In this document: in pieces, positions 1,667 through 24,315 of the stretch
Layout of the letters: each line of letters opens with the position of its first letter
How positions within the stretch are numbered: position 1 is the first letter of the stretch
IMG/VR virus record: IMGVR_UViG_3300042731_007704
Location: 1 to 31,158 of that record
Length of the DNA stretch: 31,158 nucleotides
Direction: 5' to 3' (one strand)
Origin: a virus
Notes under the pieces: generated by a model
The model's database searches: none
Told to the model about the DNA's origin: nothing
Seen by the model: only the letters and a program-made list of their open reading frames with translations
Made by a program: the position numbers and the translations under genes

Positions 1667-2135
1667 CGTCTCGTCTCCCAAAGCATTCCTCGAGCGATGG
1701 TGCGCTGTAGTCGCCAGTGTCGGGCTCGTCGAGCCCTTCGCTTTTCTGCTGCCGGTTCTTGTTGCAGTCACCACAGACGCCGGTGTGCATTTCGAACTGG
1801 TTGTTGGGGTCTAGCTTAGCGTCGCACTTGTCGCAGGTTGGTCCGTCATCGCCAAGCTCATCAGACACCAGCACGGTAACATAGGCCATATCGAACGCCT
1901 CGTGGATGATGGCCAGATGAGGCTTGAGGTTGTCCAACGCGCTGATCGCGTTCTGCATCCGGTTAAGGTCGGCGGACAAGTCCTGTTCCCTGATCACGTT
2001 TGCCGGCACACCCACTCCCGGAGGGATACTGCCCAGGTCAGACAAGTCGGTGGTTACGACGTCGACCCAAAACTGGCAAGCGTCTCTCATCTTTGCCACC
2101 AGCTGCTTTACCGTTACTTCCTTTGGCGTTGGCAT
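1659..2135 (-). CDS. Hypothetical protein with C-terminal zinc-ribbon motif, 158 aa
   Basis: The N-terminal 95 residues look helical, with no recognised fold. A four-Cys metal-binding motif follows: CDKC at 101-104 and CGDC at 121-124, spaced like a zinc ribbon. The tail after 125 is acidic and likely disordered. A strong Shine-Dalgarno (GGAAGGAGAT) lies 6-7 bases before ATG 2135, which also overlaps the stop of the gene upstream. Zinc ribbons of this kind often bind nucleic acid or protein, but no specific role can be read from the sequence. Confidence 0.7.
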   Translation of the reverse strand: MPTPKEVTVKQLVAKMRDACQFWVDVVTTDLSDLGSIPPGVGVPANVIREQDLSADLNRMQNAISALDNLKPHLAIIHEAFDMAYVTVLVSDELGDDGPTCDKCDAKLDPNNQFEMHTGVCGDCNKNRQQKSEGLDEPDTGDYSAPSLEECFGRRDDD

Positions 2136-2656
2136 TACAGATCTCCTTCCACGAACCGCTTGACCAGGTAAGCCTCGCAGATGGATAGAAACTGCTTGTT
2201 GATCTCGTAGAACCTGGTGTCCAGTCTGTCCAGCTCATCGTAGTCTGGATGGTTTAGGAAGTCGTCGACCCGGTGGTCAACCTCTTTCCAAATGCGGTGG
2301 ACTTTGGATACCATGTCCGAGATTTCGTTCACCACCTTTTTGGCTTTCTCGTTCACGCAACTATTGGCGATGACGTCCAAAACGCCTACCACCAAATCAT
2401 CGGCGCAAACAACGTACTCGTTCTCGCACCACTGATGAAAACCACCGTTTTCTATCTGATAGTTCAGGTTGCCGACGAGGACAGCCTTTTTCTCGAGGCC
2501 ACCCAAGCTATTAACGAAGGTGCGATACGGGTGTTTAGCCCAAGGACTGAGAGGATAGCCCGACACCTGGCCAGCAGCATCCTTGTTGTTGCGCCACCGA
2601 AAGTATGCCCTATCCATCAACGCCTGCAAAAAGACCGGTTCCTTGTTGTCGTTCAT
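2135..2656 (-). CDS. DUF4375/DMP19-like protein, 173 aa
   Basis: The central segment (about residues 45-80: FVNSLGGLEKKAVLVGNLNY, then IENGGFHQWCEN) matches the signature I associate with DUF4375, the fold of the Neisseria DNA-mimic protein DMP19, where the NGGF motif is typical. The C-terminal half is helical and acidic (VDHRVDDFLNHPDYDELDRLD), as expected for a DNA mimic or interaction surface. ATG 2656 has the recurrent GGGAGCAGACAG leader and an ATGA overlap with the acetyltransferase gene. Whether it mimics DNA is inference; many DUF4375 proteins have unknown roles. Confidence 0.6.
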   Translation of the reverse strand: MNDNKEPVFLQALMDRAYFRWRNNKDAAGQVSGYPLSPWAKHPYRTFVNSLGGLEKKAVLVGNLNYQIENGGFHQWCENEYVVCADDLVVGVLDVIANSCVNEKAKKVVNEISDMVSKVHRIWKEVDHRVDDFLNHPDYDELDRLDTRFYEINKQFLSICEAYLVKRFVEGDL

Positions 2657-3135
2657 CTGTCTGCTCCCTGCCAGTAGTTCATGATGGTAACTCTACCATC
2701 GTATCTTTCGTCCATGCGCCGATAAAATCGGTCGCTGCGTTCGTCCCAAATACTAACGATGACGTTAAGGTAAGCCAACATAACACGATCGAACAGCTTA
2801 GTGGCAAAACCAAAACCTCTGTACTCCGGCTGAACAAAGATGCTAACCTCTGGTGTCGCGTTTGGGCAATGTTTACTGCGAGCTGCCATTGCCCAACCAA
2901 CCACTGCCCAACCAACTTCTACAGAGAACCAAAACGCCGGCCGATAATAGGGCATATCGCCGCTCCACAGCACGAAGGTGTCAACCCAAACCTCCGGGTC
3001 ATTCAGTGCCGTGGTGGCCATAGCATCATCACCATTCACCCAACTGGCACCAGGTTCTGGCCGGGCAGCAACCAACTTGCGTAGCCGATGCTGTATGAAC
3101 CTGGGCCAGTCACACCAAGCACGATGTTCTATCAT
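2653..3135 (-). CDS. GNAT-family N-acetyltransferase, 160 aa
   Basis: The acetyl-CoA binding motif A of GNAT enzymes is visible at about residues 95-120: VSIFVQPEYRGFGFATKLFD, a beta strand followed by the R-G-x-G-x-A turn and helix. The N-terminal half supplies the preceding strands (AFWFSVEVGWAVVGWAMAA). The substrate is unknown; phage GNATs may act on small molecules, proteins or modified DNA. ATG 3135 lies just after the stop of the VWA gene; a TTG at 3141 would be an alternative. It is co-transcribed with the DUF4375 gene, with which it shares an ATGA overlap. Confidence 0.7.
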   Translation of the reverse strand: MIEHRAWCDWPRFIQHRLRKLVAARPEPGASWVNGDDAMATTALNDPEVWVDTFVLWSGDMPYYRPAFWFSVEVGWAVVGWAMAARSKHCPNATPEVSIFVQPEYRGFGFATKLFDRVMLAYLNVIVSIWDERSDRFYRRMDERYDGRVTIMNYWQGADR

Positions 3136-3137
3136 CG

Positions 3138-4643
3138 TCAACCACCCAGGTTGATTACGGGGGCTAGCTTGTCGTCGTCGCCCCGTGTCGCATTAACGTT
3201 CAGTGTCTTGGTTGCGATCTTGCCCAGACTGTTTCTCACCTCCGCTTCATCACCAACACAAATCACGTAGAAGTTGACCCCGTGCTTCTTGGTCATCTGC
3301 TTGGCTCGGTCAATGTGCTCTTGGTCGAGGTCAGACTCGCCATCGGTGATGATGATGACGTCGGCTTTGCGCATGGTCTTGCTAGTGGTGATGATATCCA
3401 ACGAACGAGCAACAACCGGGTTAAAGTCTGTGCCACCACTGGGTCGCGTGCTCACCACATCCAAAATCTCGGCCAGCGTTGGCGTCTTACCCTTAGGTAC
3501 CGACTTTTCACGGATGACGTCGGCGTTGAAGTCGATCAGATGATAAAGCCGCTTTTGCTTGGTAGCGGTGGTAAGAATGGAAATCGCAGCAGCGTTGGCC
3601 CACGTCGTGCGTCCGCTCCTCATCGACGTCGACCGGTCAACAGCGACCACCACGGGACCACGAGCCTTGCTCTTCTTGGTGCGCTTGCGATAGCTCAACG
3701 CCTTGCGCTGCTGCACCTTTTGCAAGGTCTCGAGCCTGATCATCGGGTTGTTGCTCGCCAGACCGACCAGCTCGACAGGGAGCACGTCGTTGACGTCGCC
3801 ACCCATCGTCACGCCAGAAACCGAAGTGCCACCATGGGTCACTTGCTTGCGCTTCTTGGTTGCCGCCTTGCGCTGCATACGTCCTGCTTCGGCCAACATC
3901 CGCTTGAGCTGTTGGTTGTTGCGAATCATCTCCCAAGCAGCACGCTCGGCGTCAAGGTTGTCGGCTTTCTCGGGTGCGCCGACCTCGGTACCAGGAAGGC
4001 CCAACGCTTGGTTGATGCCTTCCAACGACTCACGAGCTTCGTCGACGGCGCCACGGGCAGCACGGCAAGCGGCACGGATCCGACGGCGCAGATTGGCGTC
4101 TGCGTCCTCGTCCGGTGACTGCGCCATGGCTTGCTGCTGTGCCTGCTCGTCTGCAACCATCTGAGCAATGGCATCGCCAGCACCACCCGAACCATCGCCA
4201 AACTGACCGCCCATCTCGTTGGCGAACTGCGACATCGGACCAGCTGCCTGACCCTGGCCTCCGCCTTGACCACCACTCTGCTGTTGCTGTTCTTCTTTCT
4301 CAGCTTGGGTAGGCACCAGCGGAGCCAACGCCGAAAGGAGCTTTTCGGTTGCAATGCTGGCAGCCAACGAACGACGCGAGCAACGCTTCTTCAGGTCGTG
4401 CCACTCGTTAAGCTCCTGCGCCGTCTCGAGCAAATCGGTTGCCCACTCCGGAGCTTCGTCACGTCGGGTTGGCTCGTTGGGAAGGTACATCGCCGCGTGA
4501 ACATCCTGCGCGAAAGCAGCAAAGTCGGCTTGCTTGCTTGCGCCGTTATCGACGGCATAACGAGCTTGATGACTGCCATCAACGTGGCGCTGCCATCGCT
4601 GATCGGCAAAGTTGGACGTTTTGTAAACCAGACCACCCATCAT
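3138..4643 (-). CDS. VWA-domain protein, partner of MoxR ATPase, 501 aa
   Basis: The C-terminal domain (about 328-500) is a von Willebrand factor A domain with an intact metal-ion site: D336, S338 and S340 (DRSTS), T405 (GGTDF) and D434 (ITDGESD). Upstream lie a helical N-terminus, a Gln/Gly-rich linker (about 117-175) and a basic helical segment. In MoxR/VWA pairs (such as RavA-ViaA) the VWA protein docks the AAA+ ATPase onto a client. The MoxR gene lies directly upstream, 6 bases away. Two adjacent ATGs (4643, 4640) follow TAGGGGGCA; the second has the better Shine-Dalgarno spacing. The client is unknown. Confidence 0.85.
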   Translation of the reverse strand: MMGGLVYKTSNFADQRWQRHVDGSHQARYAVDNGASKQADFAAFAQDVHAAMYLPNEPTRRDEAPEWATDLLETAQELNEWHDLKKRCSRRSLAASIATEKLLSALAPLVPTQAEKEEQQQQSGGQGGGQGQAAGPMSQFANEMGGQFGDGSGGAGDAIAQMVADEQAQQQAMAQSPDEDADANLRRRIRAACRAARGAVDEARESLEGINQALGLPGTEVGAPEKADNLDAERAAWEMIRNNQQLKRMLAEAGRMQRKAATKKRKQVTHGGTSVSGVTMGGDVNDVLPVELVGLASNNPMIRLETLQKVQQRKALSYRKRTKKSKARGPVVVAVDRSTSMRSGRTTWANAAAISILTTATKQKRLYHLIDFNADVIREKSVPKGKTPTLAEILDVVSTRPSGGTDFNPVVARSLDIITTSKTMRKADVIIITDGESDLDQEHIDRAKQMTKKHGVNFYVICVGDEAEVRNSLGKIATKTLNVNATRGDDDKLAPVINLGG

Positions 4644-4649
4644 TGCCCC

Positions 4650-5849
4650 CTACAGACTCAGCGCCAGCTTGGACTCATGCTGCAGAGCCAGACCGGCTGC
4701 CTCGGCGTGCCACTGCTGAATCTTGCTCAACGCCTGCTCGGACCGATGCTTGCGGTTGTTCGGGCTGTCGTCGTGTGCCTGCTTCAGCTCGGAGTAGATA
4801 TCGACGAGCTGCTGCAGAACGTTCTCGATGCGAGACCGAAAGTCGTTGTCGCCAAGCTCTGGCATCTGGTTGTATACCTCGCGTGCTTGGTCCTCTTTCT
4901 CGATGGCCGTCAGGTGCAACGGATTGGCGATGGCGAAAACGATCCGCTCGACGGCATCGATCTGCTCGGGCTCGTTCCAGGCAACGTTAGCCAAGATCTC
5001 GAGGTCGCAGATCTCGATGGTCTTGCCACCACGCAGCCAAGACACCGCCTGCAAGATACCGCCGATCTTGTACCAACTACGGTCGCTGACCCAAACGCCG
5101 TTGTTCTCGAACTCGACCTTGATGTTTTTGAGCTTCTGCAATGCCTCGGGCGACATCGTGATCTTGCTTGCTTCTTCCTGCGCACGCATCACGTCGTCAA
5201 TGGTGACGGTGGCGTTGACCTGCTTCAGCGGAAGATCGCGCTGCACCAGACGCTCAAAGCTGACCTCTTCCTGGCAGGACTGCACGACCTGGCGGATCAT
5301 GAACCTGTCCCACAACGCGCGGAGCTTCTTCTGTTCTTCCTCGTCGTCGGAACCAGGCATTTCGTTCGACGCGGCGAACATGGAAAGCAGAGGAGCCTTG
5401 GTAGACGGCATGCCAACCTGGTGAACGGTGCGCTCATTGGTCAGGCTGAGCAAGGCGTTGAGGACTGCGCTGTTGGCCTTGAAGATCTCATCCAGGAACA
5501 CAACCTCGCTATCCAACGCGCTTTGGTTGGTGATGCGAGTGTACTCGCCTTTGCTGCTGTAGCGCTGCAGATCGACCGGACCAAACAGCTCGTCAGGGGT
5601 GGTGAACTCGGTCATCAGGTACTCGAAGTAGTTGGCATCCACCATCTGGCCCTTGGTGCCGTGAGCCTTGATGCGGTCTTTTACCTGGCGCACCAACTCG
5701 GACTTGGCGGTTCCGGGCTCGCTCAACTGCACGAAGTGCTCACGTGAGACCATCGCCACCCAGGCCAGGTAGACGGTGTGGTCACGCTCGAGTAGCGCGT
5801 TGGTGGTGTCCTCGATGACGTCGTTGATCTTGTCGCAAAGTGTCTTCAT
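4650..5849 (-). CDS. MoxR-type AAA+ ATPase, 399 aa
   Basis: Walker A reads EPGTAKS at residues 44-50, preceded by the HFVQLS strand. Walker B reads FLDEIFK at 118-124 and is followed by NALLSLTNER (131-140), the MoxR-type continuation. A sensor-1-like segment (MFAASNEMPG) and arginine-finger region (LWDRFMIR) follow. This is the layout of MoxR/RavA ATPases, which remodel protein complexes together with a VWA partner. The start at 5849 is chosen because GGGAGCAGACAA immediately precedes it; longer versions would run into the upstream gene. The last 100 residues are helical and may contact the VWA partner. Confidence 0.88.
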   Translation of the reverse strand: MKTLCDKINDVIEDTTNALLERDHTVYLAWVAMVSREHFVQLSEPGTAKSELVRQVKDRIKAHGTKGQMVDANYFEYLMTEFTTPDELFGPVDLQRYSSKGEYTRITNQSALDSEVVFLDEIFKANSAVLNALLSLTNERTVHQVGMPSTKAPLLSMFAASNEMPGSDDEEEQKKLRALWDRFMIRQVVQSCQEEVSFERLVQRDLPLKQVNATVTIDDVMRAQEEASKITMSPEALQKLKNIKVEFENNGVWVSDRSWYKIGGILQAVSWLRGGKTIEICDLEILANVAWNEPEQIDAVERIVFAIANPLHLTAIEKEDQAREVYNQMPELGDNDFRSRIENVLQQLVDIYSELKQAHDDSPNNRKHRSEQALSKIQQWHAEAAGLALQHESKLALSL

Positions 5850-5874
5850 TTGTCTGCTCCCTTGGTTCATTGGC

Positions 5875-6879
5875 CTACTGGCAGTCCTCGCACACCCACT
5901 TGTTCGCACGCTTCTTGGCACCCTCCAACGGCTTCGGGTGCTTGCACACGGAACAAATAATCTTGTTCCCCTTCTTCGCCTTGCTGCCCTTGTCGCTGAC
6001 GGTGCCATCCTTGTGAACGGTGATGCACTGCCGAAGGTCCATCATCTTCTCACACGCGGTGTCGAGCTTCTTGAGAACGGAGTCCATCTTGGAAACGCCA
6101 ACACCCAATGCCGACTTGTAGAGGTTGGCCTGCTTGCGAAGCTCCAACGAGCGCTGCATGCGAAGAGTATACACGGTGCTGCGCTCCGTGCCGTCGAACT
6201 CGTCGACCTGCTGCACCAGCTCATCCAGCTTGTCAGCCAACGTCTTTTTGGCTTTGTCTTTGATGTCAGCAACAGCTTCCTTGCCGGAGATCTCTGCGAT
6301 GTAAACCCTGATGTTGACGGCCGTACGCAGAAACTCGGCAAGCTCTTTGACCTTGGCGACCATCTGAGGTGGAACCCAGTAGTTGGGCTTAAAGTACATA
6401 GCCGCACAGCGGCTGACGAGATAGTCGGTGATGTTGTTCGTCCAGTCATCGCCAACGATCTTGCCGCGAATGTCCTGGTAAGCCAAGTTGATCTCTTGCG
6501 CGACCTGGTGGTTACCACGGATGACGCTGGGGTCGGGCTCAGCTTCCCACGTGAGCTTCCCCTCGAACTCGTGCGTTACCGTCTCGCCATGCTCGTCGAC
6601 CTCTTCAGGCGAAATGCCCATGATGACGGTTTTCTTGGTCTTCTTGATGGGACGGATGACGTAGCGCTGCTCACCGTTCTTACGGTTGGCGAAACGAGGC
6701 ACCTGACCACGCAGCGTGCGAAAGATCTGCATCCTGTCGCCAGCGTAGTCAGGCACCAGTTCATCTGGGTCAAGACCCGCACCGATGGCCATGTCGCGTG
6801 CTTCATCGGGGAAACGAGGAACCGTGCCGCTGACCTGAAAGAAAACGAGCGCCCCGTTGCTGAATTGCTTGGTTGTCAT
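5875..6879 (-). CDS. Uncharacterised protein with C-terminal zinc ribbon, 334 aa
   Basis: The N-terminal 110 residues look beta-rich (GALVFFQVSGTVPRFPDEAR, QRYVIRPIKKTKKTVIMG), the middle (about 110-295) is long and helical, and the end carries CSVC at 309-312 and CEDC at 330-333, a classical zinc-ribbon spacing. ATG 6879 overlaps the upstream stop (ATGA) with a strong GGAGG site. It lies directly before the MoxR and VWA genes with no promoter between, so it may be the third member or substrate-facing part of that module. I do not recognise a named family with certainty. Confidence 0.75.
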   Translation of the reverse strand: MTTKQFSNGALVFFQVSGTVPRFPDEARDMAIGAGLDPDELVPDYAGDRMQIFRTLRGQVPRFANRKNGEQRYVIRPIKKTKKTVIMGISPEEVDEHGETVTHEFEGKLTWEAEPDPSVIRGNHQVAQEINLAYQDIRGKIVGDDWTNNITDYLVSRCAAMYFKPNYWVPPQMVAKVKELAEFLRTAVNIRVYIAEISGKEAVADIKDKAKKTLADKLDELVQQVDEFDGTERSTVYTLRMQRSLELRKQANLYKSALGVGVSKMDSVLKKLDTACEKMMDLRQCITVHKDGTVSDKGSKAKKGNKIICSVCKHPKPLEGAKKRANKWVCEDCQ

Positions 6880-7394
6880 CGGTTGGCCTCCTTCTCCTGC
6901 TTCGCGCCTACGAGGTAGCCGAGATTGAAGGCTGCATCGGCAACAGCCGATGCCAACGAATCGCCCTTGCCCATGACGCAATCGGTGTTGTTCTCCTTCA
7001 GCTCAGGGAACCGCACCTGCCACTCGGTCGGGTCAGCGGCAACCAGATCGACGTCGAACTCCGTCAACTCCAACTCGCCCATCATCTCCTCAAGCTCCTC
7101 GAGACCAGCCGGACCGAACACTGGCGAGCAGGTAGCGAGCGGGTTTTTGCTGCCGTGTTCCCTGACCTGATCGCGCAGCACAGACAGGTACTGCTGCTCA
7201 TGCCTCATAGACAACAGAATCTGCGCGAGGTCGTCTTTGGTGGCAGCCGTTGACCAACGCTTGCCAGCATCGCCCAGCAGCATCGTCATATCGACGCGAG
7301 TGAACCTGGCCTTGATACCATCCACCCCCACCTCCGGGTCCAACGCTTGGAATAGATGCTTGATGGTCTTAAATCTCTTCTCTCTGTCAGTCAT
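6876..7394 (-). CDS. Hypothetical acidic protein, 172 aa
   Basis: The start MTDREKRFKTIKHLFQALDP is preceded by GGGAGCAGAGCA, the initiation string also seen before the MoxR and DUF4375 genes. The protein is rich in acidic helix in the middle (GLEELEEMMGELELTEFDVD), with a short Gly/Ala-rich end (GDSLASAVADAAFNLGYLVG). It is the first large gene of the MoxR/VWA module and follows a 120-base gap with two hairpins. Function unknown. Confidence 0.72.
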   Translation of the reverse strand: MTDREKRFKTIKHLFQALDPEVGVDGIKARFTRVDMTMLLGDAGKRWSTAATKDDLAQILLSMRHEQQYLSVLRDQVREHGSKNPLATCSPVFGPAGLEELEEMMGELELTEFDVDLVAADPTEWQVRFPELKENNTDCVMGKGDSLASAVADAAFNLGYLVGAKQEKEANR

Positions 7395-7453: not shown

Positions 7454-7516
7454 GAAACGGACAAACTCACCAAGCCGATCAAGCTGGTGAGCAAAACGAA
7501 CATCGTGACGCTGCAT
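7445..7516 (-). CDS. Possible 23-aa coupled mini-ORF
   Basis: The ATG overlaps the TAA of the 122-aa gene (TAATG), and the frame runs 23 codons (MQRHDVRFAHQLDRLGEF and five more) to a TAG inside the stem of hairpin 1. The coupling geometry is the same as at real gene junctions here, but the peptide has no recognisable feature and could be a chance frame. If translated, ribosomes would open both hairpins, which suggests a leader or regulatory role rather than a functional peptide. Confidence 0.25.
   Translation of the reverse strand: MQRHDVRFAHQLDRLGEFVRFAT
7466..7491 (-). terminator. Intergenic hairpin 2, possible weak terminator
   Basis: Read on the minus strand, CTCACC pairs with GGTGAG, with an inner AGC/GCT pair and a single bulge. 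It is followed by TTTGTCCGTTT, a poor T tract. It lies between the 122-aa gene and the MoxR module and could attenuate readthrough from the promoter upstream. Only the structure is visible; termination is inference. Confidence 0.25.
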
Positions 7517-7884
7517 TACAAAGCCTCGTTGATCTCGGCAACTGGGCGCCAGTTGAGCGCCAACAGCATGGTGAACCTGGCTCTATTGAGAGCACGGTAA
7601 TAGGTTAGCGTCGTCTCATCCCCAAACTCGGTCGAGACAAACGTAGTGTTGATCAGCTTGGCGATCTTATCAAGCTGCTTCTTGGCCTGCTTGTCCTGAT
7701 GCGAACGAATGATGCGAAACACTCGACCATCATTCGTTCTAGCGAATAGGAACGTACCGCTGGTGCGCGGATCACGTATTCGCTCTTGCGTCGCCCAATG
7801 CGTGACAGTGGAGACTGCGATCTCCACTGTCTCATAGTCGTACGTCAACGCCGGGCTTGGTAGCCACTCGGCCTTGATCATCAT
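7516..7884 (-). CDS. Hypothetical protein, 122 aa
   Basis: The start MMIKAEWLPSPALTYDYETV is chosen because CCAGGAG lies 6 bases upstream, and because a promoter with predicted start near 7920 would leave almost no leader for the longer ATG at 7911. The sequence looks like a small alpha/beta domain: strands VEIAVSTVTHW, GTFLFARTND, GRVFRIIRS, then a helix KKQLDKIAKLINTTF. No known catalytic motif is seen. It is the first gene behind the only clear promoter in the left third of the window. Confidence 0.7.
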   Translation of the reverse strand: MMIKAEWLPSPALTYDYETVEIAVSTVTHWATQERIRDPRTSGTFLFARTNDGRVFRIIRSHQDKQAKKQLDKIAKLINTTFVSTEFGDETTLTYYRALNRARFTMLLALNWRPVAEINEAL

Positions 7885-7927: not shown

Positions 7928-7957
7928 ATTGTACCACAGTCGTATGACAGATGTCAA
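7928..7957 (-). promoter_or_regulatory. Sigma70-like promoter P1
   Basis: On the minus strand a perfect -35 (TTGACA, 7957-7952) and a near-consensus -10 (TACAAT, 7933-7928) are separated by 18 bases. The spacer ends CTGTGG directly before the -10, exactly as in the promoter at 29579-29608. It lies in the 223-base gap between the genes ending at 8108 and starting at 7884; the rest of that gap shows no convincing gene. It should drive the 122-aa gene and probably the MoxR/VWA operon. Confidence 0.7.
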
Positions 7958-9760: not shown

Positions 9761-12613
9761 TCATACCTCCAGTATCTTGGTTTCTCCGTCCACTAAGGTC
9801 AGATGCATCCTATGGTCGGCATCAGCTTCTACGAACTTCTTATGCGTCATCAACAGTATCGTCTTGCCGGCCGACTCTTCCCTCAAAAGCTCTATGAATA
9901 TCTGCGTAGCCTCGTCGTCTAGCGGGTCGATGATTTCATCGCCAACCAACAAGTTCACGAACCCGCCGGTCTTTGTCGCCAAATCGTTGAACGCTTTCTG
10001 AATGGCTAGGTCGACCTTCCGCTTTTGACCACGCGAGCAACCGCGATAGGTCAGCCTGCCAGCCAACGCCACGTCGAGCTTGTTCTCGATCTTTCCTCCC
10101 TTAGTCTCCACCTCATTGGTCAGCTTGACCGGCAGGCCGAACCGCTCGGAATACCTCTCCACTCGGCTATTAAGGTAAGGCATCGTCACAGTGGAGAGCA
10201 CCTTGGCTCGGATGCCCTTAGTGCTAAACGCACTGACAAGCCAGTCCAGCGCGTACAGCTCGTGTTTCTGAGTCTCTATCTGCTCGTCTATAAAATCCAG
10301 CTCAGCCATTGCCGAACTAAACTGCTCATCCACTTCCTTCCGTACTGCCTTCAGCCCATCCAACGCTGTTCGCCGCTTGTGCATTTCGGCCTTAAGCTCG
10401 TCGATCTCTTTCTCCAAACTACGTAGTGCTTGTTGCTTGTCTTCCCTAGCCTTCCTTAGGTCCGCTGGCCTGGGTATAGAGTCTAGGTCTTGTTCGGCCA
10501 GCCGAAGCACCCCCATGCTCTCGGAATGCTCTCGGCGAATATCAGCCACCTTATTGCTCAGGCTAGCCAACTCACCCCTCATCTCCTTCACCCTAACAGA
10601 TATCAAGGTAAAAGCAAGATCCTGCCCACAGGTTGGGCAAGCTCCTCCATCCATTGTTTTTATTTGCTCGTCGAGTCGGTCCTTCGTCGTGCTGTAGATA
10701 TAAGACGTCTGGTTAAGCTTTCGTTCTAGCGCAGATGCGGACCGAGCTGCTTCGTCAACCTTGGCTGCCATCTCGCCAAAAGCTAACTCGTTAGCCTGCT
10801 CGAACTTCTCCACTTGTTCGATTTCTACGGATAGTACGCCGCGTCTGTCGACCAGGCTAGCCAGCCTCAGCTTTAATTCGGCCATACCCTGCTTTTGGTT
10901 GCGCATGGCCTCGACTATCTCGCCGGTTACTTGTTTGCTGCGTTCGTTCAGCTTGGTCACGTTGTTCGCAGCTTGCGCGCGCTCGCCAGTGAGCTTGTCC
11001 ATCACTTGGCTAGCCGACTTCAACAGTGAGACGACCTCGGAATAGATTTCGCCATAGATCTCGGCGCCAGTTATTTGCTCCACGAGTTTGATACGATCTG
11101 GATAACGCAGAGCTGTGAACCTAGTTTGCAAGTCAGACGTGAGGAACACACTGTGCTGCAATACCGCTTTGCTTCGCCCGATAAGGTTTCTAATAAGATC
11201 ATCAGTATCGCGGCTGACACGGCAACTGATCTCCTCCTCGCCTGCCCACAACCTCACCTTGTTCGGGTGGCGACTGCGCATCACGAGATAAGGCTTGTGG
11301 TTCACGAAGAATGAAAGCTTGACGTGGCAGGACTTGTTTCCCCAATGAATCACGTCGTCGCCCGTGTACTCTCGAAGCGAAACACCGGTCAACGCCCAGA
11401 AGATAGCCTCAACGATAGTCGACTTGCCGACACCGTTGTTGCCCATTATCGCCACCAAGCCACGGTTGGCCAAGTTGATGGTGTCCTTACGTATGCTCTG
11501 GAAGTTGACGATCTCTACCTCGTCGAACTCGATGGATGCAGCGTGCGTATCTGCTTTGCTTTTACACTTGTCGATGATGTGGAGCCCATACTCGAGAATG
11601 CGTTCTCTGTCGCCCTCACTGTCGAATAGCATCACCTCGTCGACAGCTTTGCGAAAGTTCTCTTCCGGCGAGAACGACTCGTCTATTGCCGGCATATCAT
11701 CGGATAGCTTCTTGTCCGGAATCTCTTCGATGCGTGCGCCAGCAGCCAGACAAGCGACAAGCTCGGCAACCTCGCGCGTCTTGCTAGTGCATTTCACCCG
11801 AACGTAAGCGTTCTCGTAACCGTCAGGCGTCTCCTGCCAATACTCTGCGTCATCTTCGTTCAAGATTTCTACGGTGGAAAACGGTCTTTCATGCGGGTTG
11901 ACCAGCCTAGTCACTTCAAAGTAGCCATCCTGTTCCACCTCGGCAAGAACGGCGCCTCTAGGCGAAGTAGCACCATTCTGGCTGTCACGGAACGAACGAG
12001 ATAGGATAGCACCAACATTGAAGAAATGCCCAGCTAGGGTTTTTGGCGCGTGTTGGTGGCCATTGAACGTCAAACAAGGGAATTGATCCGGAGTTACACC
12101 AAAATCGCACACCCTCCCGCTGTCCATTATCCCGCCAAACACGTCCAAGTGGGTGAGACACACCTCAGCCTCTTCGGGCACCTTAATACCCTTGATATCG
12201 CTCGCCCATGGGATGCAATACAGCCAACCCCACAACAGCATCGGCTTGTCGATGACTTTGTCGACGATCGGGCGCAAAAACTCTAGTATATGGATACGAT
12301 GTTCTTCGGAGTAAGTGTCATGATTCCCCGTCAAGAAAATCAGCTTGGCGCCAAAGTCGTTGCACACTCTCTTCATATATACGATGAGTTCGGTAGCCAA
12401 CTTCAACGAGATGGTTTCAACATGACCCGTAGACTCGAACAGGTCACCCAGACAAGCTACGACCTTAGGCCTGTTCTTGCAGATTTGGTCAGTGAGCCAA
12501 TCGAAAGACCGCTCCACCTGATGGAGGTAGTCAGACAGACCATCGCTGGTCGGTTTACTGAACTCAGCCTTGGGCGTGATGTGGGGGTCAGAGAATATAA
12601 ACAACCGCTTCAT
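9761..12613 (-). CDS. Single-chain Mre11-Rad50 (SbcD-SbcC) nuclease, 950 aa
   Basis: Two subunits that are normally separate are joined. Residues 1 to about 340 are an Mre11/SbcD/gp47 metallophosphoesterase: D9 and H11 (SDPH), GDLFE 56-60, GNHD 96-99, H155, GHQH 185-188. From about 360 comes a Rad50/SbcC/gp46 ATPase: Walker A GNNGVGKST (391-399), coiled coil with a CPTC zinc hook at 659-662, a signature region near 858 (GCSRGQKRK), Walker B LLVGDE (889-893 area) and MTHK (922-925). The complex processes DNA ends and hairpins for recombination. The hook arms are short compared with bacterial SbcC. No stop or frameshift is present between the halves. ATG overlaps the upstream stop (ATGA). Confidence 0.93.
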   Translation of the reverse strand: MKRLFIFSDPHITPKAEFSKPTSDGLSDYLHQVERSFDWLTDQICKNRPKVVACLGDLFESTGHVETISLKLATELIVYMKRVCNDFGAKLIFLTGNHDTYSEEHRIHILEFLRPIVDKVIDKPMLLWGWLYCIPWASDIKGIKVPEEAEVCLTHLDVFGGIMDSGRVCDFGVTPDQFPCLTFNGHQHAPKTLAGHFFNVGAILSRSFRDSQNGATSPRGAVLAEVEQDGYFEVTRLVNPHERPFSTVEILNEDDAEYWQETPDGYENAYVRVKCTSKTREVAELVACLAAGARIEEIPDKKLSDDMPAIDESFSPEENFRKAVDEVMLFDSEGDRERILEYGLHIIDKCKSKADTHAASIEFDEVEIVNFQSIRKDTINLANRGLVAIMGNNGVGKSTIVEAIFWALTGVSLREYTGDDVIHWGNKSCHVKLSFFVNHKPYLVMRSRHPNKVRLWAGEEEISCRVSRDTDDLIRNLIGRSKAVLQHSVFLTSDLQTRFTALRYPDRIKLVEQITGAEIYGEIYSEVVSLLKSASQVMDKLTGERAQAANNVTKLNERSKQVTGEIVEAMRNQKQGMAELKLRLASLVDRRGVLSVEIEQVEKFEQANELAFGEMAAKVDEAARSASALERKLNQTSYIYSTTKDRLDEQIKTMDGGACPTCGQDLAFTLISVRVKEMRGELASLSNKVADIRREHSESMGVLRLAEQDLDSIPRPADLRKAREDKQQALRSLEKEIDELKAEMHKRRTALDGLKAVRKEVDEQFSSAMAELDFIDEQIETQKHELYALDWLVSAFSTKGIRAKVLSTVTMPYLNSRVERYSERFGLPVKLTNEVETKGGKIENKLDVALAGRLTYRGCSRGQKRKVDLAIQKAFNDLATKTGGFVNLLVGDEIIDPLDDEATQIFIELLREESAGKTILLMTHKKFVEADADHRMHLTLVDGETKILEV

Positions 12614-17555: not shown

Positions 17556-17662
17556 CGGACCGGCACCTCCCGCTCTCGCACCACGAACCCCGCCAGCCCG
17601 GTCACAACAGCCGCATTCTTTACTCCGACCAAGCGACAAAGCCACGACCTCATGCAGCTCAT
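17552..17662 (-). CDS. 36-aa small protein (candidate)
   Basis: The ATG overlaps the TGA of the DNA polymerase gene (ATGA), with GGAG 9 bases upstream, and the stop overlaps the next ATG in the same way. The peptide MSCMRSWLCRLVGVKNAAVV continues TGLAGFVVREREVPVR: a basic N-terminus, a short hydrophobic middle and a charged end, compatible with a small membrane-associated protein. Support comes from junction geometry only. Confidence 0.42.
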   Translation of the reverse strand: MSCMRSWLCRLVGVKNAAVVTGLAGFVVREREVPVR

Positions 17663-20649
17663 TCGCAGTTACTCCGCTCGGGAAAACGCCAGACAGACTT
17701 GATGGTTGACGTGTTGTTTCCCTCGTCGTCCTCTTCATCTTCCCTCTCAATCTCCACGATCTTCGGTCTGGGTATCCACTTGAGTACCACAGCCTTGAAC
17801 TTGGCAAAATGTTCTGGCTTACCGGAGATAGACACCAGCCCATTACCTAGCAGCTTCATCTTAAGTGTCTCGCCCCAGCTAACACCAACGTCGAAGTCCA
17901 CTGCCAACGGTACCCTAAGCCAATCCAGATTTTCGGATGGCCAGTCCTCCATGATTTCCTTGAGCACCAAGGCATAAGCCAACAGCTCTCCGGGATAAAT
18001 AGAACTACAAATGGAGTCATGAATTGTCGCCCAAATGCTCGACTTGAAGTCGTCTGCTTCTATCCGCTCCGTGGCCATGGTCAACGCGTTGGTGCAGATG
18101 TCTCCTGCGGTCATCTGTATGGGGTTGTTTATACCGCGTCGGCGGAGATCATCCTTATCGTATTTCTTCTTGTCTAGTATGCGTCGAAAGCCCCACTCGC
18201 TCCATACCTCGCCATCTTGCTGAGCCTGCTTCTCCTGCTGTTTATGATAGCGCCGGACAGACGGAAATGTGTCTAGATACTTCTTGATGATCTTCTGGGC
18301 TTTCGCCTTGGAAATGCCCAGCTGACCAGCCACAGCTGCAGCACCACGACCACCGATCGCAACGCCGAGGGATACCGCTTTGTGTGAGCTTCGCTCAACG
18401 CTCGTTACGCTCTTCTCGTCTTTACCTTGGCAAAGAGCCGTCACCAAGGTATGGATATCTCGGCCCTCCCGAAAGGCCTTTATCATCTCCTCGTCGCCAC
18501 AGTAGTTAGCCAAAACACGCAATTCCTGCTGCGACCAGTCAGCAATCAAGATTAACCCAAGATCGTGTAACGGGATTACACACTCCTTGGTTACGGAGCC
18601 TCGGGTGATCCCATGCCAAGGTGGTACGCCTTTGCAGTTGTATCGCCCCGTATCCGTCGTCCTGATGCCGAACTGTGCATGCGCTACGTCCTCAAGGTCA
18701 GCATATTTGGGTATCGGCTTGAGAAAGCTGCTGTTCAGCTTCGCGGCTGCGTTATACCGCTGAAGCTCCTTGATTGCCTTTACCTTCTCATCTATCTCGA
18801 TCTTGGTTGAGTCTCGTTTAGCTTTATCCAGTTTGTCATAAAGACTAACCAAAATATCGTTCAAGACGTCTTTGTCCGCAGATGGGGCACCTGCGTCTGT
18901 TGTTCTGATCACTGGGCACTTGAGGATATCGAACAACCACACACGTTTGTTGCGCGGCGAAGACAGCTTTATCTCCTTCGGCACTTTCTTCACCTCTGGC
19001 ATGTCTTCTAGCTTGCGCCGCACCTGATCTTCGTAGCTCTGGTCAAACCACTGTTGGACTTCGTCCATGGTCTGCTGCATTTCTTGGTATGCCTGCTCAA
19101 ACCGACGAAGGTCGAGCTTTATTCCTCTTCGCTCCATCTCCACAGTGGGCAAAATAGCAGGCACCGTGACTCGTTCGTGTGGGTCTAACAGCCCCTCTTC
19201 GTCCAGCAAATCGGTCAGCTTTTCGTGTAATCGGCCAGTACTGTCAGCATCAGCACAGCAATACCTATGCACGAGGAACAAGTCTAAGTCGCCCATGTGG
19301 CGTTCGCGATAAATCACTTTATCAGCATCGACCTCGATCGCCCACGGGTTGTGCTTCTTGTCGGTCAGCCGACTTAGATTGTCAGTCAAGTCTAAGGTAA
19401 GCTGTTCATATTGGCCTTCGATGGGCAACCACGGAGGCAAATCCAGAAGCGCCTGCTCCATTTCATCTTTGTGGCTGACCATACCGAGGTATCGCGTAGC
19501 CAACGTCTCCAAATTCTTCTCACCCATGTCGTTGTAAAGCGACCAATGAGCAAGATAGGTATCGCCTGCTACCTTTTTGGGGAAAATGCCTACTCGGTTA
19601 AGCCAATGGATATCGAACTTGAGGTTATGCCCTACCAACGGCACTGTCGCCAGCAAGTCGTTGGTCATATGTATAATCGCCCGTAAGCTAATCGTATCCT
19701 TCCAAAACGGCGACTCCGGATGGTTGAACGGCACAGTGTACCCACGCCCAGGTCTATCGGAAAGCGAAAACAAGAGCAGTTCGCCGTAGGGAAGCAAGAA
19801 GCTGTGCAGCCCAGTGGTCTCAGTATCGAGCGCCACAAAGTCGATATGCCCTTCGCGATAAGCTCGTTTGATCTTGGTGTAGACCTTTTTGATCTTCTCC
19901 AATGAGTCGAGCAGAACGTATTTGTCCCAAGGTACCTGGTCCTCGCCAGTTATCTTCTTCGTCAGATATGATAAATCCTCGAGGATATACTGCCTGGCTT
20001 CCTCGCCACCTCCGCGCAGAACGTATGACGGATGAAAAGTCGGCCAGACAGTAAACTCCTCGCATTTGAACTTCGGAAAGCCATGCTTCTCCCCTCTCTC
20101 AATGGCTTTCCTGCGTTGCAGCTGAGTATGCGTGTCCTTAGGCAACAGACCCATCTGATCCGTAGACTTCAGCCACTTAAGGAGCTTGCCAAATCTGAAG
20201 TCTATCGATGGAAACTCGGATACCCAACGCTTACGGCGAACGCCGCTTATCGCCTTGGCATCGGGGATGAAAAACTTCGCAGAAGTATAACCTAACGGCA
20301 CGATGAACACCGGTCGCAACCTCAACACTTCCGCTTCGATATACGGCCGGCAAGCTTCTATTTCTTCTGGTTCGGGTGGGCGTACTCCTTTCCTCCGGTT
20401 CTTCGGATTCCGCAACGGCACGCACCTAACGACGTTGGTCCAACGACACCACTCCTCATCCACGCCAGCTTGTTTCATCAAGCTCTTCAGCTCACGCCAA
20501 GCTTCGCCAACAAAAGCCTTGCCTTGTTCGTCCTCATCCCGTCCTGGCGCTTCGCCGACGAACAAGACGATTGGCTTTTCGGCACCTCGCGCGTTGACCT
20601 TCACCGTTGTCGCCGACTTGTGCAGCCGGCAGCGCGTACAGTCACCCAT
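17659..20649 (-). CDS. Uracil-DNA glycosylase fused to family A DNA polymerase, 996 aa
   Basis: Residues 1 to about 230 form a family 4 (Fe-S) UDG: ligand cysteines C4, C7, C76 and C100, motif GEAPGRDED (32-40), FVGEA (46-50), and HPS (206-208). Then comes a 3'-5' exonuclease: D275/E277 (LDTET), N342/D346 (HNLKFD), Y463/D467. The polymerase follows: motif A DWSQQELR (704-711), motif B R753-K757 with KAVSLGVAIGG, and motif C IHDS (876-879). There is no 5' nuclease domain; that enzyme is encoded separately at 12975-13958. The SPO1 polymerase is a known case with a UDG-like N-terminal domain. Several active-site positions deviate from Pol I (Tyr to Trp in motif A, Phe762 equivalent to Leu, Tyr766 equivalent to Ile, HDE to HDS). 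Confidence 0.95.
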   Translation of the reverse strand: MGDCTRCRLHKSATTVKVNARGAEKPIVLFVGEAPGRDEDEQGKAFVGEAWRELKSLMKQAGVDEEWCRWTNVVRCVPLRNPKNRRKGVRPPEPEEIEACRPYIEAEVLRLRPVFIVPLGYTSAKFFIPDAKAISGVRRKRWVSEFPSIDFRFGKLLKWLKSTDQMGLLPKDTHTQLQRRKAIERGEKHGFPKFKCEEFTVWPTFHPSYVLRGGGEEARQYILEDLSYLTKKITGEDQVPWDKYVLLDSLEKIKKVYTKIKRAYREGHIDFVALDTETTGLHSFLLPYGELLLFSLSDRPGRGYTVPFNHPESPFWKDTISLRAIIHMTNDLLATVPLVGHNLKFDIHWLNRVGIFPKKVAGDTYLAHWSLYNDMGEKNLETLATRYLGMVSHKDEMEQALLDLPPWLPIEGQYEQLTLDLTDNLSRLTDKKHNPWAIEVDADKVIYRERHMGDLDLFLVHRYCCADADSTGRLHEKLTDLLDEEGLLDPHERVTVPAILPTVEMERRGIKLDLRRFEQAYQEMQQTMDEVQQWFDQSYEDQVRRKLEDMPEVKKVPKEIKLSSPRNKRVWLFDILKCPVIRTTDAGAPSADKDVLNDILVSLYDKLDKAKRDSTKIEIDEKVKAIKELQRYNAAAKLNSSFLKPIPKYADLEDVAHAQFGIRTTDTGRYNCKGVPPWHGITRGSVTKECVIPLHDLGLILIADWSQQELRVLANYCGDEEMIKAFREGRDIHTLVTALCQGKDEKSVTSVERSSHKAVSLGVAIGGRGAAAVAGQLGISKAKAQKIIKKYLDTFPSVRRYHKQQEKQAQQDGEVWSEWGFRRILDKKKYDKDDLRRRGINNPIQMTAGDICTNALTMATERIEADDFKSSIWATIHDSICSSIYPGELLAYALVLKEIMEDWPSENLDWLRVPLAVDFDVGVSWGETLKMKLLGNGLVSISGKPEHFAKFKAVVLKWIPRPKIVEIEREDEEDDEGNNTSTIKSVWRFPERSNCE

Positions 20650-22494: not shown

Positions 22495-22729
22495 AAGTGA
22501 TCCTTTTGAACTCGCCCCATGTCAGCGGGTATACACCAACAGTAGTCTTCCTGTTGACAAGAACACCTAGTTGGGTCACCCTAGCTCCGTTAGGCGCATG
22601 CGCACCACCAATGTGCAAAGACTGACCGTATTCCTTGATGTCTTCGTCGTCGGCCACCACATATTCTTCGCCTTGCCTTACTGCCAACCTAATGGCCTTA
22701 CCTAATCTAGTGTCCTCCGGAAATATCAT
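22487..22729 (-). CDS. Hypothetical protein, 80 aa
   Basis: MIFPEDTRLGKAIRLAVRQG is followed by several short strands (EEYVVADDEDIKEYG, THIGG-like SLHIGGAHAP, RVTQLGVLVN) and ends in LTWGEFKRITYG. ATG 22729 forms an ATGA overlap with the stop of the kinase-synthetase gene; a GTG at 22735 is less likely. Because it directly follows the PurZ-like gene, a link to the modified-nucleotide pathway is conceivable but nothing in the sequence shows it. Confidence 0.6.
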   Translation of the reverse strand: MIFPEDTRLGKAIRLAVRQGEEYVVADDEDIKEYGQSLHIGGAHAPNGARVTQLGVLVNRKTTVGVYPLTWGEFKRITYG

Positions 22730-24315
22730 GCCCACACCCGACGGTCGATGATCGCATTCGGCCCGAACTCCTTAGAGACCAGACTGACTGGAACACCGGT
22801 CTGTTCCTCGATGCGCTTGATCAGGTGCTTGGCGGTGGAGTCCAACTCATCAAAACTCGTTGCTGCCCGGTTTTTGATATTCAGGTAGTCGACAAACGTC
22901 AAGGCAATGTCGGTGGGGGCATTAAGGTGACAACTTTGCCTGAGCAAACCCCAGTCGAACTCGCCAATGCGTCGCTTGCGCTTGGTCGTAGAGGTGGTTT
23001 CCGTTTTCTGAAGCTCAGCAAGGTCAATGCCTGCACGCTCATGAATTTCCTCGATAGTGATCTCCTTGAACATTGGCCCACTGGTTCCTCCTTGAGGAGA
23101 CTGCACACGAATAGGATAGGTACGGCAGATCATCATCACGCGGTTGACTCTCGACGGAGGAACACCGGCCTCGGACAATAACCCGCTGATGGAACAGTCA
23201 CGGCTAGTGCAGTAAGGAAAAGGGCCATGGTGAAGACTGAGCCCAGTACCCTGAGTACCTTCGACGAGCACGCGACGACCCTCGGCGTAAGCCGACTCCA
23301 GCACCGACATCGTAGGCGTGATGTACTTCTTTAGATCGTCGTGATTACCGGCCAACACCGTGTCCAACCCACGAAGTACCTTTCGCGCCGTTGCCTGGCC
23401 AACACCTTGCCCAGTCGACCCTATCTCGCCCACAAGCCCGCGTGCCTCCTTCTCCTTGTCCTCGTCGCTGATGATCATGGCGTTCGGGTCGATGAACAGC
23501 CTATCCGGACCAAGACCACACTCCTTGATCTCGTCGAGCAGACGGGGTACGTACATCACTGCGCCGGGTGCCAACACGATCTTGGCCTTGGTACAACGAG
23601 TACCGGAGGGTAGATGGTGAAAAACGTAAACACCCTCGGGTTCCCAGACGGAATGGCCGGCATTTGGTCCGCCACTGCGGATAAGGACATCGTATTCCTT
23701 GGCGACATAGGCAGCCACATTGCCTTTGCCTTCGCTACCATACTGACCGCCCAGCAACACGTCCACCGAACGATGCTCGCTTGGAGCCTCACCCATGATG
23801 ATCAACGCGCGCCCAAAGGTCTGGCCAGGAGAAGACCAACCCGTGTCGATCACGCCATCCGACAGATCGGCGAGCTTGTTGACCGCCTGCTCAACCGGGC
23901 AACGCTTGGCGCTATCATAGTCGGTGTCGATCACATTGAAGTTGTTGCGTACCTTGAACCGTTCGCGAAGCATCCGGTCAGGAGCAATCAGATGAATATG
24001 CGTTACCAACGCAAAACGCTCACGAATGGCACGCACCTGCTCGGGAGTACGCACGGCGTCGATCACGAAACCGATACCACATCCCTCCACGTCGGCCTCC
24101 ATTTCCTCCACGATCCATCGGCCATTCGTATCTCCATCCAAGCTACGGCCTAGCTCCTGCAGCAGCTCACGATTCTGGTTAGCGCCGAGTCGCTTGCGGA
24201 TAGCCTCCCTGGTCTTGAAGTGCCGCATGCCAAACCTACGAGCCAAGTTCTCGGCAAGATGCGACTTGCCAGACGCGATAGCGCCAGTAATCAACACCAC
24301 TCTATTGGACAGCAT
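22726..24315 (-). CDS. purZ: P-loop nucleotide kinase fused to PurZ/PurA-like succinoadenylate synthetase, 529 aa
   Basis: Residues 1 to about 165 form a small P-loop kinase (Walker A GAIASGKS, 11-18; LID-like RERFKVR near 117) of the dNMP/dephospho-CoA kinase type. From about 183 on is an adenylosuccinate synthetase homologue: GGQYGSEGKG (189-198), GGPNAGH (215-221), STGQGVG (300-306), EGTQGTGLSLHHG (352-364), TTSTTKRKRR (440-449). Compared with E. coli PurA, the catalytic Asp13 is replaced by Ser194 and the TKxD guanine-binding motif reads TFVD (473-476). PurZ, as I recall it, uses dGMP and aspartate to make dSMP, later converted to dZMP. The kinase could then act on a dNMP of the same pathway. 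It is adjacent to helicase and primase genes. PurA activity on IMP is the alternative. Confidence 0.82.
   Translation of the reverse strand: MLSNRVVLITGAIASGKSHLAENLARRFGMRHFKTREAIRKRLGANQNRELLQELGRSLDGDTNGRWIVEEMEADVEGCGIGFVIDAVRTPEQVRAIRERFALVTHIHLIAPDRMLRERFKVRNNFNVIDTDYDSAKRCPVEQAVNKLADLSDGVIDTGWSSPGQTFGRALIIMGEAPSEHRSVDVLLGGQYGSEGKGNVAAYVAKEYDVLIRSGGPNAGHSVWEPEGVYVFHHLPSGTRCTKAKIVLAPGAVMYVPRLLDEIKECGLGPDRLFIDPNAMIISDEDKEKEARGLVGEIGSTGQGVGQATARKVLRGLDTVLAGNHDDLKKYITPTMSVLESAYAEGRRVLVEGTQGTGLSLHHGPFPYCTSRDCSISGLLSEAGVPPSRVNRVMMICRTYPIRVQSPQGGTSGPMFKEITIEEIHERAGIDLAELQKTETTSTTKRKRRIGEFDWGLLRQSCHLNAPTDIALTFVDYLNIKNRAATSFDELDSTAKHLIKRIEEQTGVPVSLVSKEFGPNAIIDRRVWA

Follow-up and report, generated by a model that had tools for sequence, protein, structure and literature searches.

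The DNA described here, IMG/VR virus record IMGVR_UViG_3300042731_007704, was analysed over its entire 31,158 bases (hereafter the window) and is probably a genome fragment. Between positions 7394 and 3138 its minus strand carries four intact open reading frames (ORFs) of 172, 334, 399 and 501 amino acids, which we call P0001 to P0004 (Table 1). They encode, in this order, an acidic protein, a protein resembling the DUF6744 family, a MoxR-type AAA+ ATPase and a ViaA-like protein with a von Willebrand factor A (VWA) domain. P0001 and P0002 overlap in an ATGA, P0002 and P0003 are separated by 25 nucleotides and P0003 and P0004 by 6; Shine-Dalgarno-like stretches precede all four starts, the one before the VWA gene being weak. 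An initial annotation of this DNA regarded the four genes as one module. The four ORFs are indeed present and tightly packed, but only three of them are conserved together.

Table 1. Features at the MoxR-VWA locus of the window
Feature	Position	Strand	Basis or remark
P0002, DUF6744-like protein; N-terminal alpha/beta part, three long helices, C-terminal zinc ribbon	5875..6879	-	hhalign, AlphaFold2
Zinc ribbon CxxC-x19-CxxC, C-terminus of P0002	5881..5955	-	sequence
P0003, MoxR AAA+ ATPase	4650..5849	-	PF20030, 150 bits
Walker A of MoxR, SEPGTAKS	5700..5723	-	sequence; S in place of the first G
Walker B Asp-Glu of MoxR, intact	5487..5492	-	D120 in 92/92, E121 in 91/92
P0004, ViaA-like VWA protein; N-terminal half helical, VWA domain reaching the C-terminus	3138..4643	-	PF13519, PF00092
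MIDAS DxSxS (DRSTS, residues 336-340) of P0004	3624..3638	-	completed by T405 (3429-3431) and D434 (3342-3344)
P0001, acidic orphan that opens the tight run but lies outside the conserved module	6876..7394	-	
Small co-directional gene upstream of the four-gene run, first behind the promoter-like site	7516..7884	-	
Sigma-70-like promoter site, TTGACA-18-TACAAT with TG (extended -10)	7928..7957	-	best promoter-like site
GNAT-type acetyltransferase gene, 2 nt past the VWA stop	2653..3135	-	PF00583, 28.7 bits

An alignment scan of viral contigs with MoxR confirmed 118 relatives, and the counts that follow concern the best 80 of these. Scans of the same contigs with each of P0001, P0002, P0003 and P0004 as single proteins gave no relative (the alignment scan alone succeeded), and tblastn of P0002 against phages gave no match. 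A VWA gene is found in 78 of the 80 MoxR-anchored loci, and both a VWA and a DUF6744 gene in 57; after dereplication to 65 groups the numbers are 63 and 47. The DUF6744 count is not circular, since the loci were picked by MoxR similarity and not by P0002; the fractions should nevertheless not be taken for natural frequencies, because the MoxR seed alignment (a Moorella phage included) and the choice of the best 80 favour near relatives. In the 57 full loci the genes for DUF6744 (D), MoxR (M) and VWA (V) occur in the orders DMV (30), MVD (18), MDV (6), dMV (1), VMD (1) and DVM (1), and in 54 of these loci the gaps add up to no more than 3 kb. Loci L083 and L093 are opposite ends of a single contig, whose 24-base end overlap sits in a tandem repeat, so that this contig is only possibly circular and its DUF6744 and MoxR genes only possibly adjacent.

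The association also appears in the reverse direction. With DUF6744 as the sole query, 46 bacterial contigs were retrieved (to judge by their titles mostly from Bacillota and Actinomycetota, one of them a named plasmid, and at least three, L097, L099 and L124, cut by contig ends). Of these, 42 have a VWA gene, 39 have MoxR and 38 have all three. Viral loci fetched by DUF6744 have all three genes in five of seven cases, four of these five being on contigs of the first set. The conserved unit is thus three genes (MoxR, VWA and DUF6744), not four. The survey of gene neighbourhoods which the initial annotation proposed as a check therefore turns out favourably for three of its genes, which co-occur strongly, and negatively for the acidic one, which never recurs. 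P0001 is acidic as described (computed isoelectric point 4.88), but it has no relative in Pfam, NCBIfam or PADLOC, nothing better than E 0.17 in PHROGs, and none in the viral contigs, the phages or any of the fetched loci. Given that many viruses not otherwise related have DUF6744 next to the pair, the DUF6744 protein is probably a dedicated part of a machine rather than a bystander.

How far the three genes behave as a module is best illustrated by the nearest relative, L007, a 130 kb virus record. It shares the three genes with the window in the same order, at identities of 35, 42 and 42%, and the window finds no further ORF match, frame shadows aside, in the 17 kb around the L007 module. 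Pairwise correlations between the three proteins' distance matrices over 70 groups give r of 0.82, 0.88 and 0.83 (0 of 2000 permutations), falling to 0.38-0.60 when limited to distant pairs. As the comparison has no neutral-gene or genome-wide control, we read this correlation as showing co-inheritance and not contact.

The initial annotation called P0002 a zinc-ribbon protein. There is a ribbon at its C-terminus, but for the most part the protein is a divergent DUF6744 relative. Its nearest relative, in L007, scores 19.7 bits against PF20529 (DUF6744), below the gathering score of 27 bits, and a profile iterated from P0002 collects 59 ORFs among 86 sequences (the window and L002 to L086). With hhalign, P0002 and the L007 relative were aligned to a 20-member set at 99.8% probability (E 6e-28, 251 columns, residues 6-281 of P0002). 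Because all 20 members of that target set match PF20529, this profile-profile match indicates that P0002 is a divergent DUF6744 homologue lying under the Pfam cut-off. P0002 departs from the family in having KPNYWVPP where the conserved motif reads (R)xGGVYFVP, so that the GG is missing, and in its zinc ribbon; the ribbon pattern is found in P0002 alone among the 59 ORFs and is an addition to the DUF6744 domain. In Moorella phage MTATph1, an isolate, the MoxR and VWA genes have upstream of them a gene for a 301-residue protein that matches PF20529 with E 5.6e-61 and resembles P0002 weakly (12.8 bits).

The AlphaFold2 model of P0002 has a mean pLDDT (predicted local distance difference test) of 85 and is confident to about residue 280, parts of the tail falling under 50. 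The best Foldseek match among solved structures has E 0.16, and four viral models stand out as similar, including L7TK87 of Haloarcula vallismortis tailed virus 1 (HVTV-1; E 7e-10). A further structure comparison (the VIA rows) concerns mainly residues 161-300. As the N-terminal part is barely covered in it, we do not call DUF6744 a new fold. Residue E92, which the model places in a loop after a strand, is Asp or Glu in 56 of 74 relatives. The C-terminal tails of DUF6744 proteins differ from one another (L015:9212-10360, L077:5798-7750, L045:4001-5296): one is very basic and rich in Lys, Ala and Pro (net charge +27), another gives a weak Rho_N match under the cut-off (E 0.0024), and there are possible small barrels with no Pfam match. 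DUF3150, which we take to be a neighbour of CbbQ/CobT-like plasmid genes, presumably has a similar GGxxxVP stretch, and we mention this as an idea only; a literature search for DUF3150 gave no paper that names it.

P0003 contains Walker A and B motifs in an AAA core of the MoxR type, and exceeds the Pfam cut-offs for PF20030 (27 bits), PF07728 (AAA_5) and PF17868 (AAA_lid_8). The first Walker A position is G in 88 of 92 sequences and S in four, namely P0003 and three relatives. RavA (NF010054) is its sole NCBIfam match at E up to 1, with 163.4 bits over residues 3-302, below the curated cut-off of 681 bits. Among solved structures, too, RavA is the best match (residues 4-304, E 3.9e-39), the alignment ending on the RavA side at chain residues 298-300. 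A profile built from the viral relatives gives cellular RavA 361 bits and ends at residue 346 of 509. The C-terminal region of RavA past the AAA module, whose parts are named LARA and triple-helical in the accessible text of PMC4124505, is matched neither by P0003 nor by the viral profile.

The VWA protein fits the same picture. The initial annotation credited it with an intact metal site, and rightly so: the metal ion-dependent adhesion site (MIDAS) is complete and near-invariant among 59 VWA sequences, with D336, S340 and D434 present in all 59 and S338 and T405 in 57 each. The best NCBIfam match of P0004 is ViaA (NF008230; 57.1 bits over residues 251-464, the curated cut-off being 500 bits), and the viral VWA profile gives ViaA 175 bits, a match that includes the segment GxDLxRLLPxEL, which in ViaA precedes the VWA domain. 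P0004 thus has the MIDAS, this segment and a gene adjoining MoxR, as expected of a ViaA-like partner. Its AlphaFold2 model (mean pLDDT 88) aligns over residues 243-501 with the MIDAS domain of Rea1 (Z 17.1, root-mean-square deviation 3.4, 195 residues) and with NorD in complex with NorQ (Z 16.2, deviation 3.1, 187 residues). These alignments exceed the VWA core; plain VWA domains score equally high over a shorter stretch. Pfam finds no effector domain on P0004, which in Pfam and in the model ends with the VWA domain. The earlier description of the two proteins as a RavA-ViaA-type pair can be kept at the level of the clade, where best matches and viral profile scores support placing P0003 and P0004 in the RavA-ViaA branch of the MoxR family. 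We do not file them as RavA or ViaA proper, because the curated cut-offs are missed and the C-terminus of RavA is unmatched.

It is useful to set the module against known systems. With enterobacterial RavA-ViaA it has in common the operon of adjoining MoxR and VWA genes, the AAA core, the GxDLxRLLPxEL segment before the VWA domain and the MIDAS, whereas the viral profile stops short of the end of RavA and the window proteins score far below the curated cut-offs. We know of no counterpart of the DUF6744 partner in RavA-ViaA.

Viral MoxR-VWA pairs as such are already known, and pairs or MoxR genes are reported in the accessible parts of PMC2147016, PMC4124505, PMC7824862, PMC7911831, PMC8651126 and PMC9964418. 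Examples are p618/p892 of Acidianus two-tailed virus (ATV), orf66/orf63 of phage 0305phi8-36, the group 2.2 jumbo phages and haloviruses, which are alike in carrying a virus-borne AAA+ ATPase and a VWA protein. They differ in that no DUF6744 component is mentioned in the accessible text of PMC4124505, PMC2147016, PMC7824862 and PMC7911831, and, where compared, they belong to other MoxR/VWA branches. A full-text search, with subscription papers and preprints outside its reach, found no paper naming DUF6744, and no description of a third component beside a viral pair was found in the accessible portions of the MoxR and phage literature. What is new, in our opinion, is DUF6744 as the conserved third member of such pairs. 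Few clients have been identified for the widespread MoxR-VWA pairs. A third gene which keeps company with the pair whatever the gene order, and in viruses with little else in common, offers a handle on the client.

The question can be tested outside metagenomes, since isolates carry the genes. MTATph1 has DUF6744, MoxR and VWA within a few genes. HVTV-1 has a DUF6744 gene, HVTV1_25 (PF20529, E 3e-19), an AAA_5 gene, HVTV1_59, and a VWA gene, HVTV1_57, in one genome and not adjacent; its AAA_5/VWA pair is another branch, both members of which are missed by the viral profiles. HVTV1_100/103/104 had been considered as a module from their gene sizes and were rejected, the profiles finding nothing there. 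Related Haloarcula viruses also have a DUF6744 gene.

For a view of the surroundings, 147 ORFs flanking the module were taken from 49 DUF6744 groups; 131 were scanned, and 16, most of them encoded on the other strand from the module, were excluded by hand. The best 25 of 102 PHROG families among them include exonucleases (two families, with 6 and 5 members), DNA polymerase, ligases, clamp loaders, Sak4, helicases, primase, DNA modification and two endolysins; none of these 25 is a head or tail family. The Pfam matches (best 25 of 53) agree. Of the clients which the initial annotation considered (virion assembly, replisome turnover or a host target), these neighbours would point, for viruses that carry DUF6744, to the side of DNA metabolism. 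In one lineage a PD-(D/E)XK nuclease, a Sak4-like ATPase and a protein which we read from its sequence as DUF669-like repeatedly follow the VWA gene. In the window itself the surroundings comprise PolA with a uracil-DNA glycosylase (UDG) domain, DnaB-like and ResIII-type helicases, a primase, RecA, SbcD-SbcC, a 5'-3' exonuclease, a PurZ-like protein and ThyX.

We propose that the three genes encode a viral AAA+/VWA remodeller of three components, with DUF6744 as third subunit or adaptor and a client likely to be found in DNA metabolism; taken as a whole, this proposal seems to us about evenly poised between right and wrong. The MoxR protein would form a ring driven by ATP, onto which the ViaA-like protein would dock, with a ligand held at its metal site. 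The dedicated third subunit would be the DUF6744 protein, most likely as an adaptor linking the VWA protein to the client. The latter would most likely belong to viral DNA replication or recombination, for example recombination complexes or those of the polymerase, clamp or clamp loader, in need of loading, stripping or recycling. The zinc ribbon which the adaptor of the window has gained would suit contact with nucleic acid or with the replisome. The accessible text of PMC13036017 describes how the VWA domain of NorD attaches to the NorQ ring; its MIDAS is believed to hold the target, and twisting of the partner by the ring opens the client. By analogy, ring and VWA protein may work in the same way here.

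Several points weigh against this proposal. PF20529 itself does not match P0002 at E up to 1, and the zinc ribbon is no conserved feature of DUF6744. A search of the whole records of 20 MoxR loci lacking DUF6744 found PF20529 in just one, so MoxR-VWA pairs also occur where DUF6744 is missing, a clade of large phages being a prominent example. Neighbouring genes speak of location and not of substrate; the siting among early replication genes is circumstantial, and most neighbours are nameless. Finally, in the large-phage clade without DUF6744 the pair lies, by our reading of the sequences, beside a structural or portal-like gene and a large RNA-polymerase-like gene.

This last point leads to a role in virion assembly, our second choice of client after DNA metabolism, in which the pair would be a chaperone that helps tail or head proteins fold or assemble. 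ATV p618 is described in the accessible text of PMC4124505 as a virion protein that binds the VWA protein p892 and has a chaperone role in tail development, and the MoxR-vWA pair of the group 2.2 jumbo phages is proposed to act in virion assembly (PMC7824862, accessible text). We nevertheless consider such a role rather unlikely for the present module, given the DNA metabolism genes around it in the window and the lack of head or tail families among the best 25 PHROG families at DUF6744 loci; moreover, p618 is just distantly similar to P0003 (25% identity over 47% of P0003).

It is also conceivable that the module is a conflict or host-takeover system acting on a host or defence target. The MoxR-vWA ternary conflict systems (VMAP, iSTAND, beta-propeller) likewise combine MoxR, a VWA protein and a conserved third protein, and in having such a third component the module recalls the VMAP and iSTAND systems described in the accessible part of PMC7159879. 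P0003 passes PF20030 (bpMoxR), the MoxR domain named for the MoxR-vWA-beta-propeller systems, and DUF6744 modules are present on bacterial contigs and a plasmid. The third protein of the window is, however, modelled as alpha/beta with helices and not as a beta-propeller, the VWA protein has no effector domain, and PADLOC gives nothing beyond a weak AAA match (E 0.004). In our judgement a system of this kind is improbable here.

A more specific version of the remodeller we propose would be a virus-specific machine akin to Midasin, and we offer it as a speculation that is probably wrong in its particulars. Rea1/Midasin is likewise an AAA+ ring working with a MIDAS domain, the one to which the VWA model aligns, although in the window these are separate subunits. 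The VWA metal site would grip an acidic residue of DUF6744 (E92 being a candidate), the MoxR ring would strip replication or recombination complexes tagged by DUF6744 from viral DNA, and the variable tails would address different DNA-bound targets. Insertion of a metal by a cofactor machine resembling CobST or NorQD, which might serve ribonucleotide reductase or cobalamin, is very unlikely in spite of the NorD alignment, of the reading of HVTV-1-like pairs in that family of archaeal tailed viruses as CobST (PMC8651126, accessible text) and of the ribonucleotide reductase two genes upstream of DUF6744 in MTATph1, because NCBIfam gives no cobaltochelatase (CobS/CobT) match at E up to 1, the best family is RavA-ViaA, and ribonucleotide reductase is absent from the best 25 neighbour families.

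The initial annotation placed the four genes in one transcription unit behind a promoter called P1. This does not hold: the four genes are not a bounded unit, since the promoter-like site fronts a fifth gene (7884-7516) and the run continues past the VWA stop at 3138. A site of equal quality arises in 6 of 200 shuffles. Beyond the GNAT-type gene there are more genes in a run without gaps, and two genes past the VWA gene lies one for a DMP19-like protein (2135-2656, minus strand; PF14300, 35.5 bits). No tRNA was found in the window and no Rfam family reached its gathering score.

A few neighbours deserve mention in their own right. On the minus strand of the window a 996-residue protein (17659-20649) is a family A DNA polymerase with a UDG-superfamily domain fused to its N-terminal side; the 131 proteins that flank the module at other loci include two UDG and two PolA matches. 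A single 950-residue ORF (9761-12613, minus strand) joins SbcD-like and SbcC-like parts. An ORF of 529 residues (22726-24315, minus strand) is PurZ/adenylosuccinate-synthetase-like with an N-terminal P-loop kinase-like stretch; PF00709 is absent from the records of 10 relatives bearing the module.

The MoxR-VWA pair lies near a DnaN gene in a gut element (L003, by PF00712) and in Aphanizomenon phage CL131 (by annotation), and DUF6744 was found in neither (PF20529 is unmatched in the CL131 record). The gp148 of the latter, encoded upstream of MoxR, was considered as a DUF6744 candidate and rejected as an LPD29 protein. In the large-phage clade without DUF6744 a reverse transcriptase gene (PF00078) soon follows the VWA gene (L069:12018-12899), with homologues in 12 loci (9 groups).

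Small zinc-ribbon genes recur before MoxR, mostly in loci lacking DUF6744 (L031:1111-1680, L055:7365-7934, L061:7264-7956 and others). Of the genes other than DUF6744 immediately upstream of MoxR, 11 of 51 are of this kind, versus 51 of 1285 others; 62 of the 65 loci entered the comparison, L027 and L035 being among the three omitted. We give this enrichment little weight, because the comparison was made post hoc and six of the eleven belong to a single homologous family within one clade.

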